Virus record (IMG/VR): IMGVR_UViG_3300036832_001336
Location: 1-43,296 of that record
DNA from: a virus
DNA: 43,296 nt
Direction: 5' to 3' (one strand)
Shown: positions 11,089 through 15,099 of the stretch, in pieces
Layout of the letters: each line of letters begins with the position of its first letter
How positions within the stretch are numbered: position 1 is the first letter of the stretch
Notes under the pieces: generated by a model
What the model was told of the DNA's origin: nothing
The model's database searches: none
The model's input: the letters and a program-made list of their open reading frames with translations, nothing else
Made by a program: the position numbers and the translations under genes

Positions 11089-12264
11089 ATGCGGATAACG
11101 GTACCGAAAGATCACAAGTTTCAGGAGCGGAGCAATTGGATAGTCACCAAGGTTGTCTATCCGATTCTCTACGTGCTGGCCCTGTGGGGCTCAGCGATCG
11201 CCTTCGCCATTCGGCAAGAAGGCAGTTACTTTGCTCATGCGGCGAGGCTCGGCGCAGGGTACTCCCCCGCGTCGAACATGACGAGCAACCTCACGCAGAC
11301 GCAGGTGAATTATTACGATAAAAATTTTGTCGACAACTTGAAGGCGGAAACACCGCAGTATAGGTGCGTCGAACGGCGGCCGTTACCCGAAAACTCCGGT
11401 AACACGTTGAACCTTTTCGAATATGTCACTTTCGGCCCGGATCTTTCCCAGGCCCCGGAAGGCACCGTTCAGAGCGGCGAAACGATTAACATATTGACCG
11501 ATAAAATCGTTATCGGCAACTACGCGGATTACCTGAATTACAGCCGATTTTCGATGCAATTGGCGATCGACCCCGCTTTGGAAAATGGCGGCAAGGAGCT
11601 GGCTTACCAGGCCGCTTTGACCGTCGCTTATTTGATCAAAAACACCACCGACGTTTTGAACACCATCGACGCCAGCGTTTTGATACAGAATGCGGCCACC
11701 GTTCCTTTCAACAAGAACAACATTACGAGCGCGGTTGCTTCGCTCCGCGGCCGCAACGTGAAGCCGATGGAGGCCGGCGAGTTTTGCGGAATTATTCCGC
11801 CCTTCGCCTGGGGCGATGCGCTCAACGATCCGGCAAACAACAGCTTCACGGACGTGTTGAAGCGCACCCAGGAAGGAACCGACGCTTTGAAGGAATTGCC
11901 TTCAGGAGACGGCGGACGAGTGCAAGTGATGCATTGGGCCGGCGTGGCGTTTTACGAATCCACGATTGTGCTCCAAACCTTGAACTACAAGGGCAACACC
12001 GGCGTCACGGCGTATCGAACCTACATTTACGGAAAAGACGGCATTATTGCCATCAGCATGGGCGCGAAGGAAAATACTGCGCTCGGGGATGGCGATTGGC
12101 GCAATTTGAAAGTCATCACCAAGCGCTACGACGATGCCTCTGTGAGCGATCCGGCCATGATGATTGGCGGGAGCTGCGCGTACAACTTCAATTTTGCCGT
12201 GGGAGTCGTGCCGGATACAACCGGACGTGTGCGCGTGATTGATGCGCCCACGCAGATCAGCTAA
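11089..12264 (+). CDS. Major capsid protein, N4-gp56-like
   Basis: A 391-residue protein. From about residue 68 it follows the N4-gp56 major capsid pattern: VNYYDKNFVDNLKAETPQY, RRPLPENSGNTLNLFEY, then GETINILTDKIVIGNYADY and AIDPALENGGKELAYQAALT. This forms the HK97-fold shell. The first 63 residues are an unusual extension containing a strongly hydrophobic helix (about residues 19-43). The ATG at 11089 has GGGAG seven bases upstream, while the alternative ATG at 11278 (MTSNLTQTQ), which would give a normal-length gp56, has no ribosome-binding site. So the long form is probably made and may be trimmed. Position after the scaffold supports the call. Confidence 0.85.
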   Translation: MRITVPKDHKFQERSNWIVTKVVYPILYVLALWGSAIAFAIRQEGSYFAHAARLGAGYSPASNMTSNLTQTQVNYYDKNFVDNLKAETPQYRCVERRPLPENSGNTLNLFEYVTFGPDLSQAPEGTVQSGETINILTDKIVIGNYADYLNYSRFSMQLAIDPALENGGKELAYQAALTVAYLIKNTTDVLNTIDASVLIQNAATVPFNKNNITSAVASLRGRNVKPMEAGEFCGIIPPFAWGDALNDPANNSFTDVLKRTQEGTDALKELPSGDGGRVQVMHWAGVAFYESTIVLQTLNYKGNTGVTAYRTYIYGKDGIIAISMGAKENTALGDGDWRNLKVITKRYDDASVSDPAMMIGGSCAYNFNFAVGVVPDTTGRVRVIDAPTQIS

Positions 12265-13161: not shown

Positions 13162-14166
13162 ATGGGCTCGAGCACTACGACGCTGCAAAGCGTTGTCGAT
13201 TCCGTTTGTTCAACCGGCGAAATGGCGCCGGTTATGCCGGCCGGAGGGTACGCCGTGGCCACCATCTTGACCATGGCCACCGATGTAATGCTCGAGCTCA
13301 TCAGCCAGCGATTCAATTGGAAGTGGAACCGGATGCGGGTGCCGCCGTTCTATACGATTTCATGGCAACAAGATTATGCCGGCCTAGGTTCTAGCTATCC
13401 CGCGCCTATCGGATGGCTGGAAAACGCCTATTGGACGGATATAAATAACGCCGCATTGCCGAAACCGACCTATGCGATGGAACCGGCGCGCGATCTTCCC
13501 GTTACCTCGATCAGCGGCAACCCACCAGCCAAAATAGATTGGGAGTTTAACAACCAGCTCATACAAGGCGTGTGGCCAGGAGTCAGCAAGAAGTACACCA
13601 ATCCGCTCGGAGCTCTGATAGCGCCGACCAATCCAAGCACCAACATTCTGGACGCGGCCGGCAACATCCTGGTGCTCACGACCTACGGGACGACAGGCGC
13701 GACAGCCCCCGCGGCGCCGGCGAACTCGGCCGAAGGCACGACCGTGAACGATGGTACTTGCGTTTGGACCGTGGCCGGCCCCAACTCGCAAGGCTTCCGC
13801 ATCCTTCCCCTTCCCCCGCAGCAAGCCACCGTTTACCAGGTGAACGTAGTAGCGCAGCGACAGGCGCCGGCGCCCTTCACCAACCTGCAAAATTTCATCA
13901 ATCCGATCCCCGACGATTACGCCAATTGGTTCCGCTCCGGCTTCTTCGCGCAGTGCTACAAATACAGCCCCAACCCGCAAATGCGCGCCATGTTCCCGAA
14001 GATGAATGGAGGTTGGATAGACGCCATTGTGGGCGCGCTCAAGCAAGGCGACCGAGAGCAAACCAACTCCGGCTTTATCCCTGACCGCAGCGTGGTAGCG
14101 CCACAGGGCGGAATCGACATAGGGCCAGCGAATCCGTACCTTTATAATGTGTGGCCAGGTCGTTGA
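13162..14166 (+). CDS. Head-tail connector / tail structural protein
   Basis: A 334-residue protein with GAGGAGG upstream. The N-terminal part (YAVATILTMATDVMLELISQ) resembles a connector helix region. Residues about 176-209 contain the module GTTGATAP...GTTVNDGTCVWTV, which recurs in the large gene at 15805 and is typical of short beta repeats in tail proteins. The C-terminal part is Trp/Phe/Pro-rich (PNPQMRAMFPKMNGG). The last seven residues YNVWPGR are encoded again, with different codons, at 14892-14912 on the far side of an HNH gene. This gene was therefore the target of that insertion. The role as connector rests on position. Confidence 0.6.
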   Translation: MGSSTTTLQSVVDSVCSTGEMAPVMPAGGYAVATILTMATDVMLELISQRFNWKWNRMRVPPFYTISWQQDYAGLGSSYPAPIGWLENAYWTDINNAALPKPTYAMEPARDLPVTSISGNPPAKIDWEFNNQLIQGVWPGVSKKYTNPLGALIAPTNPSTNILDAAGNILVLTTYGTTGATAPAAPANSAEGTTVNDGTCVWTVAGPNSQGFRILPLPPQQATVYQVNVVAQRQAPAPFTNLQNFINPIPDDYANWFRSGFFAQCYKYSPNPQMRAMFPKMNGGWIDAIVGALKQGDREQTNSGFIPDRSVVAPQGGIDIGPANPYLYNVWPGR

Positions 14167-14891
14167 TTTTACTGACTTTGTAGTTGTTTCATCATCGCCG
14201 CAACGCGCTCGATCCGGCGAACTCTGGAGGGTGAATTACACCAGTGAATTTCGAAATGACAATTCGCGCAGAGCGTTTCAAGATTCTCGTTCGCGTGATT
14301 TTTGTTGTTCTCATCGCGGTGATGAACGGTCAAATGATGCAAATTCTTGTCGCCGCATTTTTCGCAACAGAGCTCGCCCTTTCGTTGAATCGTAACGATG
14401 AATCCGCGTATTCGATAATCGCCTTTCCCGGCGAGATATCGACTCAGAGAAGCGCACCGGCGAGAGCAGAAAAATACGTGAGCGGCTTCGATTGTTTTCC
14501 CGCATATCTGACATGGAGGCTGTTTAGCACAAGCGCGAGAACAGAAGTTTTGTCTGTTTCGTCTTGTCATCTTCACTGTGAAAATCTTGCCGCAGCGCTT
14601 ACACGGAATTTCTTGGCCAGGTTCTTGTCTGCGTCGGAAAAAGCGTTCGGGATCTTTCACGCGCGCCTTGACCGAGCAAGCGTAAGAACAAAACCGCGGT
14701 GTTCTATAAGCTCTGAATCGCCGCGAGAACGGTTTATTGCAGCCCTCACATTTGTAGGTTTTCTGACGATTTGCCGCACGTTGCGATTCGAAAAAACAAT
14801 CCTTCGAACAAAATCGCGGTATGGCAGAGTAAGCGGTTCGGTTAAATCTCCGCTTGCAGCGTTCACATTTGAAAGTCATTTTCCTCAAGTG
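14143..14891. mobile_element. HNH homing-endonuclease cassette
   Basis: About 750 bases consisting of a recoded 3' end of the upstream gene (from 14143) and an antisense HNH gene. The right edge is marked by a second YNVWPGR-stop sequence at 14892-14915 that continues directly into the ribosome-binding site of the next structural gene. The interior has visibly lower GC than the flanks. The simplest reading is a free-standing homing endonuclease that entered at the end of the gene and brought its own version of the terminal codons. Confidence 0.7.
14169..14879 (-). CDS. HNH endonuclease with four zinc modules
   Basis: A 236-residue protein starting MTFKCERC; GAGGA lies a few bases upstream of this ATG, so I rejected a 101-codon in-frame extension. 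Four Cys-x2-Cys...Cys-x3-Cys modules (Cys 5/8/24/28, 44/47/64/68, 93/96/113/117, 123/126/138/142) form tandem treble-clef-like DNA-binding units. They are followed by an HNH nuclease core with C172/C175, H186-H187, and the ANENLETLCANCH segment (C204/C207, N206, H208). This is a homing-type, site-specific nuclease. It is antisense to the structural operon and its stop is two bases from the stop of the upstream gene. Confidence 0.9.
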   Translation of the reverse strand: MTFKCERCKRRFNRTAYSAIPRFCSKDCFFESQRAANRQKTYKCEGCNKPFSRRFRAYRTPRFCSYACSVKARVKDPERFFRRRQEPGQEIPCKRCGKIFTVKMTRRNRQNFCSRACAKQPPCQICGKTIEAAHVFFCSRRCASLSRYLAGKGDYRIRGFIVTIQRKGELCCEKCGDKNLHHLTVHHRDENNKNHANENLETLCANCHFEIHWCNSPSRVRRIERVAAMMKQLQSQ

Positions 14892-14915
14892 TACAACGTT
14901 TGGCCAGGGAGGTAA
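14892..14915 (+). repeat. Remnant copy of upstream gene 3' end (YNVWPGR-stop)
   Basis: These 24 bases encode YNVWPGR and a stop, the same ending as the gene at 13162-14166 (14143-14166). Five of seven codons differ synonymously (TAC/TAT, AAC/AAT, GTT/GTG, GGG/GGT, AGG/CGT). Here GGGAGGTAA also supplies the Shine-Dalgarno sequence of the gene at 14920, so this is probably the original end, now cut off from its gene. Confidence 0.8.
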
Positions 14916-14919
14916 GGCG

Positions 14920-15099
14920 ATGCCACTCAAGCCAGGAAAGAGCAGAAAAACCATCTCGAGCAATATCCGCGAACTGCACAAGGGCAAAACATTCTCGCGG
15001 ACGCGCGCGAAATTCGGCGCCAAGCGCGCCAACAAACAAGCGGTTGCGATCGCTTTCAATGAGGCGAGAAAAAAGGCCAACAAGAAAAGAGCGAAGTAA
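14920..15099 (+). CDS. Small basic phage protein (DUF6496-like)
   Basis: A 59-residue, Lys/Arg-rich protein starting MPLKPGKSRKTIS. The pattern SNIRELHKGKTF...RANKQAVAIAFNEARKKA is that of a small protein family common in phage structural regions (similar to DUF6496). The GGGAGG Shine-Dalgarno overlaps the remnant 3' end described above. Biochemical role unknown. The next gene starts at the base after its stop, indicating one operon. Confidence 0.7.
   Translation: MPLKPGKSRKTISSNIRELHKGKTFSRTRAKFGAKRANKQAVAIAFNEARKKANKKRAK

Follow-up and report, generated by a model that had tools for sequence, protein, structure and literature searches.

The stretch of DNA considered here (the window) comprises the 43,296 nucleotides of IMG/VR virus record IMGVR_UViG_3300036832_001336, within which gene A, an HNH gene and gene B were examined at 13162-15099. 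Gene A (13162-14166, + strand), the gene whose end is duplicated, encodes a virion-region protein of 334 aa and is flanked by a major-head-like gene (11089-12264) and gene C. Its sole homolog among GenBank phages is the ‘structural protein’ of Tunturiibacter phage Tunturi_3. Tunturiibacter is a soil bacterium, and the phages that host the cassette described below form an uncultured, soil-type group. In some relatives (L046:3001-4317, also L093 and L094; related loci are given by L number) gene A has about 300 extra bases, with residues 187-206 present twice, possibly an internal domain duplication. Gene B (14920-15099, + strand) encodes a DUF6496 protein of 59 aa (PF20106, E=3e-5, 24.7 bits, cut-off 24). 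Two types of gene are found at the gene B position (14920-15099 in the window; L022, L023 and L033), encoding either DUF6496 (MPLKKG...) or another basic protein (MPVKLERK...).

Between the two lies an antisense gene for an HNH endonuclease of 236 aa (14169-14879, - strand), its stop codon 2 bases past that of gene A. The protein matches the HNH family of PHROG 1271 (E=1.1e-25) and, under the family cut-off, Pfam HNH PF01844 (E=0.002); its relatives in L028 and L099 exceed that cut-off. Cysteine-pair (zinc-ribbon-like) repeats are followed by a C-terminal HNH motif, and VHH..D...N...NLETLCANCH is invariant across these proteins. A short leader with the HNH ribosome-binding site (14880-14891, - strand; TTTCCTCAAGTG on the + strand) forms the right edge of the cassette and is similar in L009 (TTACCTCAAGTC). 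The gene is free-standing, a complete antisense ORF outside gene A; an intron or intein was considered and dropped, as gene A is whole and reaches its own stop codon before the HNH gene, and no Rfam intron model matched. Rfam gave no match of any kind in the HNH region or in the window. With a pLDDT of 41 for gene A and 63 for the HNH protein, AlphaFold models were too low in quality for fold searches. Genome collections scanned with gene A, and likewise with the HNH family, yielded zero confirmed relatives. An open frame of 223 aa runs antisense to the HNH gene (14244-14915, + strand), ending at the stop codon of the stub described below; a comparable frame exists in L009, and the frame is probably an effect of composition rather than a gene. 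At L103:86-664 another HNH gene of the family has a structural-type gene on one side and a DUF6496-like gene on the other; there the stop codons overlap, with no recognizable stub.

A gene end encoded twice

The last seven codons of gene A and its stop, YNVWPGR-stop, are encoded on both sides of the HNH gene. The left copy (TATAATGTGTGGCCAGGTCGTTGA, 14143-14166, + strand; TAT AAT GTG TGG CCA GGT CGT TGA) is the functional end of gene A. The right copy, or stub (TACAACGTTTGGCCAGGGAGGTAA, 14892-14915, + strand; TAC AAC GTT TGG CCA GGG AGG TAA), starts 12 bases beyond the HNH start codon, and has embedded in it the sequence GGGAGG (14907-14912, + strand), the Shine-Dalgarno of gene B. Five of the seven codons differ between the copies, by six base changes, all silent; the stop codons differ as well (TGA vs TAA), so that 7 of the 24 bases are unlike. 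An earlier note on this DNA had claimed that YNVWPGR-stop is encoded twice around an antisense HNH gene, that five of seven codons (six bases) differ synonymously and that the second copy reaches the ribosome-binding site of gene B; all three points are borne out, and the stop codon is a further difference.

A scan of all six frames found no third occurrence of YNVWPGR-stop in the window, where 6e-7 chance matches would be expected overall (about 7e-9 per 1 kb). The duplication flanking the HNH gene is real. It is unlikely to be an artefact of assembly, since a like duplication is found in L009, from another sample, and one of mirror-image type in L100, L101 and L102 (three samples) and in L099. 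An exact 30-mer spanning the left copy and the HNH gene is absent from all other viral contigs searched.

Empty sites, stubs and exchanged blocks

Relatives of gene A were located at up to 76 loci in two scans of viral contigs, one of them with a family alignment. The census of HNH genes at the junction covers the relatives that can be aligned end to end, and finds them in four lineages: the window, L009/L028, L004/L022 and L030/L031. Presence or absence of the HNH gene is thus polymorphic among related phages here, as it is in the L115/L100 pair described below. In the HNH-less relatives gene A ends in YNVWPGR, and several continue directly to gene B, for example L008/L027 (TACAACGTTTGGCCTGGGAGGTAAGCAATGCC) and L038 (TACAACGTCTGGCCAGGGAGATAGGCGATGCC). 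The earlier note had predicted just such an empty site, with the right-hand codons running into gene B, and the nearest (L008/L027) is 1 base from the right copy. On average the right copy differs from HNH-less ends at 3.6 bases and the left copy at 6.5 (its nearest, L034, at 3 bases), in comparison with a pairwise mean of 4.8 (range 1-9) between alleles. TACAAC stands at the end of gene A in 11 of 17 HNH-less loci and in 0 of 4 HNH-bearing ones (P=0.035, a small sample). Of the two copies it is thus the right one, lying closer to the HNH-less gene ends, that has the appearance of undisturbed sequence.

A search with a degenerate gene-end pattern added no further stub-bearing case, and a motif scan of the interval from gene A to gene C in remoter relatives flagged no HNH gene. 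The gene A/gene B junction (14167-14919) is an insertion hot spot: HNH-less L020, L021, L023, L029, L034, L035 and L036 carry other ORFs there, one of them, in L021, lysozyme-like.

A second case at the same junction is L009, whose HNH protein is 70% identical to that of the window. To its right the HNH gene is followed by CTCAAGTC-TAC-TAC-AAT-GTC-TGG-CCG-GGG-AGG-TAA and then gene B; that is, the right-hand stub again spells YNVWPGR-stop, whereas the intact gene A ends in LWYTIWPGR instead. The stubs of L009 and the window are only 3 bases apart, all in third codon positions, and in the 15 bases ahead of the Shine-Dalgarno 12 are identical (P about 1e-4 for neutral sequence at saturation). Comparison of the window HNH gene with its L028/L009 relative gives dS of about 2.2 (silent sites saturated) and dN/dS of 0.09, which marks the HNH genes of the window and L009 as old and constrained by purifying selection; DNA that had been carried along passively for so long ought to be scrambled. 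The slight divergence of the stubs is most simply explained if they belonged to a working gene until recently, each being the former end of the last recipient’s own gene, as expected if every homing event rebuilds the stub from the gene of the recipient. A coding stub is lacking in L022 and L031, which stand for two of the four lineages that have an HNH gene here, and none was found at five other annotated phage HNH neighborhoods (a sixth, L151, was unannotated and excluded).

The mirror-image loci (L099 and L100/L101/L102) carry relatives of the HNH gene ahead of a DUF6496-like gene, with a stub of that gene’s start on the other side. For one of them, L100, an uninvaded counterpart exists in L115 (gene B region, L115:2863-2997). 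The left flanks of L115 and L100 are 96.7% identical over 1,787 nt, and the homology runs into gene B through ATGCCATTGAAGAAGGGAAAAAGCAAGA, ending exactly at the HNH stop codon. Past the HNH gene, L100 has a complete, divergent gene B (MPLAKGKSKKVISQNI... vs MPLKKGKSKKVISENI... in L115); homology resumes at the 3' end of gene B, at 92.5% over 2,300 nt. The L100 stub consists of the first nine codons of the old gene B. From these limits of homology and the divergent full-length gene it follows that the L100 cassette comprises the HNH gene and a replacement allele of the interrupted gene, while nine codons of the old gene survive as the stub. The window mirrors L100, with the 3' end of gene A in place of the start of gene B. 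A full-length gene with a replaced end, a nuclease gene and a stub of the old end are thus found together in L100, by comparison of the empty and the filled locus, and the anatomy of the window and of L009 agrees.

Further comparisons concern the body of gene A and its tail (roughly the final 26 codons). In the sister phages L004 and L009 the body is 84.7% identical and the tail 57.7%; their HNH proteins are about 41% identical in aa, and their gene B is of different type. Gene C is again about 90% identical, with some 90 bases around its start the same in both. Gene A tail, HNH gene and gene B were exchanged as a single block. Among HNH-less pairs the tail is the better conserved part (73.1% vs 67.5% for the body); among HNH-bearing pairs this is reversed (60.0% vs 71.2%), and the tail-minus-body difference between the two groups reaches P=0.052 in a small sample. 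L031 and its nearest HNH-less relative, L024, share 77.8% of the body and 64.2% of the tail. Left gene A ends are abnormal in three of four HNH-bearing lineages (P=0.053, again a small sample); outside its last seven codons the tail of the window is ordinary, at 75.0% identity to HNH-less relatives. The string QTNSGF in gene A, common to the window, L004 and L009, was tried as a marker of a co-conversion tract and discarded, because QTN is also present in HNH-less L023 and L029.

A candidate route of homing

One way to understand this anatomy, and in our judgment probably the right one, is as a homing cassette, intronless (free-standing), that brings with it a replacement for the end of the gene it enters. 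The HNH enzyme would cut the uninvaded phage genome among the final codons of gene A, at TAC-AAC-GTN-TGG or immediately before it; for the L100 enzyme on L115-type DNA the predicted cut lies after GGGAAAAAGCAAGA. Double-strand-break repair would then copy the donor, homology being supplied on the left by the gene A body and on the right by stub plus gene B; the repaired genome would acquire the donor gene A end and the HNH gene, the donor end being fused to its own gene A body; and the recipient’s former end would persist untranslated, a stub from which gene B still draws its ribosome-binding site. Gene A would remain intact, while the nuclease target would be altered and divided between left body and right stub, presumably conferring immunity. 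The differing spelling of the two copies would be that of a donor allele, held synonymous by selection at the protein level, and a divergent left end may in addition block early exit from repair before the HNH gene has been copied.

The history proposed in the earlier note is partly supported, and correct in outline: that a nuclease arrives with a replacement end and leaves the old end as a stub is directly visible in a related element, the L115/L100 pair, and gains support from the block swap between L004 and L009. The note overstated its case in holding that the left end was purposefully recoded for immunity. Each left-copy codon is found in some HNH-less relative, L034 is 3 bases away, and seven differences amount to ordinary divergence; the left end is plausibly just the end of another allele, with no need of designed change. 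The polarity it gave for the window is no more than probable. No close HNH-less relative was found, the nearest relatives being about 73% identical in gene A at the aa level; with a near-identical empty site lacking, we infer that the left copy came with the cassette and that the right is the former native end, which resembles the empty-site sequence.

The reverse polarity would make the left copy native, and the HNH gene, stub and gene B an import in which the right copy is baggage. Gene B was indeed exchanged along with the HNH gene in L100 and in L004/L009, and the left tail of the window is ordinary outside the last 7 codons; but left tails are abnormal in three of the four HNH-bearing lineages, whereas stubs fit the family consensus, and in L100/L115 the stub is demonstrably the old sequence of the recipient. 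We regard the reverse order as unlikely. Plain insertion of the HNH gene with a target duplication of about 24 bp, the copies drifting later, would account for a direct repeat with no homing at all. It is a good deal less probable: both stubs still read YNVWPGR-stop with third-position differences only, despite saturated silent sites in the HNH genes of the window and L009; the intact gene in the L100/L115 comparison is a divergent allele rather than a duplicate altered by drift; and the sister phages swapped tail, HNH gene and gene B as a block. Least credible of all is that the right copy is no relic of homing and was retained as the translation-initiation region of gene B, for, although GGGAGGTAA is the Shine-Dalgarno region of that gene and HNH-less relatives share the overlap, this leaves the codon-level conservation of the 15 upstream bases unexplained, and the gene-B-start stubs of L099/L100 initiate nothing intact.

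Relation to known systems

The nearest likeness to a homing cassette that replaces a gene end lies in yeast. For the WHO elements of Torulaspora and Lachancea a like scheme has been proposed, in which a nuclease gene comes with a resistance-conferring 3' end of FBA1 and the old 3' end stays behind as a fragment, the second arm of homology (Coughlan et al. 2020, eLife, PMC7282813). There too the nuclease gene, which may be antisense, stands between a full-length gene with a donor-derived 3' end and a fragment of the recipient’s former 3' end, and the donor end is resistant to cutting (PMC7282813). The differences are considerable: WHO elements have an intein-like, HO-type nuclease, invade a nuclear gene and leave fragments of about 400 bp, and cleavage has been demonstrated for WHO6 (PMC7282813), whereas the phage cassette, known from its sequence, has an HNH nuclease and stubs of 24-28 bp, which sometimes lie at the 5' end of the next gene. 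Membership among the WHO elements was considered and rejected: these are marked by an intein-derived HO/VDE-type nuclease with a zinc finger, and the phage enzyme is of the HNH family, so that the two are analogous only.

Among phages, the accessible parts of the literature on the free-standing homing endonucleases of T4-like phages (seg/mob) describe a nuclease gene near an essential gene, intronless homing, co-conversion of the flanks and a recipient made resistant by donor sequence; the cut differs in falling in the neighboring gene, distant from the insertion site (PMC2988022, PMC12724721, PMC10448857). Those parts of this open-access literature contain no description of a stub encoding part of the target gene on the other side of the nuclease gene (PMC2988022, PMC12724721, PMC10448857). 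By its apparent make-up the phage cassette would belong among the free-standing phage homing endonucleases and would work like WHO. T4 mobA (gene 39/60) is also an HNH nuclease gene within a host gene, coupled to a sequence that protects against the cut; there, however, the host gene is left in two pieces and owes its protection to a 50-nt insert that is bypassed, whereas here it is whole and has a replacement end.

Whether replacing a gene end and leaving a stub is a distinct class of phage homing, with a zinc-ribbon HNH enzyme at the gene A/DUF6496 junction acting on a 3' end or on the 5' start of the next gene, independent of the yeast WHO elements and a counterpart of engineered home-and-rescue gene drives, we judge to be evenly balanced. 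Free-standing phage homing genes are usually viewed as landing in dispensable gaps and cutting the neighboring gene. The present cassette appears instead to enter coding DNA and to pay for its entry with a replacement end, which would make conserved, essential genes usable as targets. If this is true, phages have converged on the strategy of the yeast WHO elements and of synthetic home-and-rescue drives, and both the sudden, localized divergence of gene ends and the puzzling stub repeats of phage genomes would be explained; a coding stub lying beyond a nuclease gene would then be the signature by which to search other genomes.
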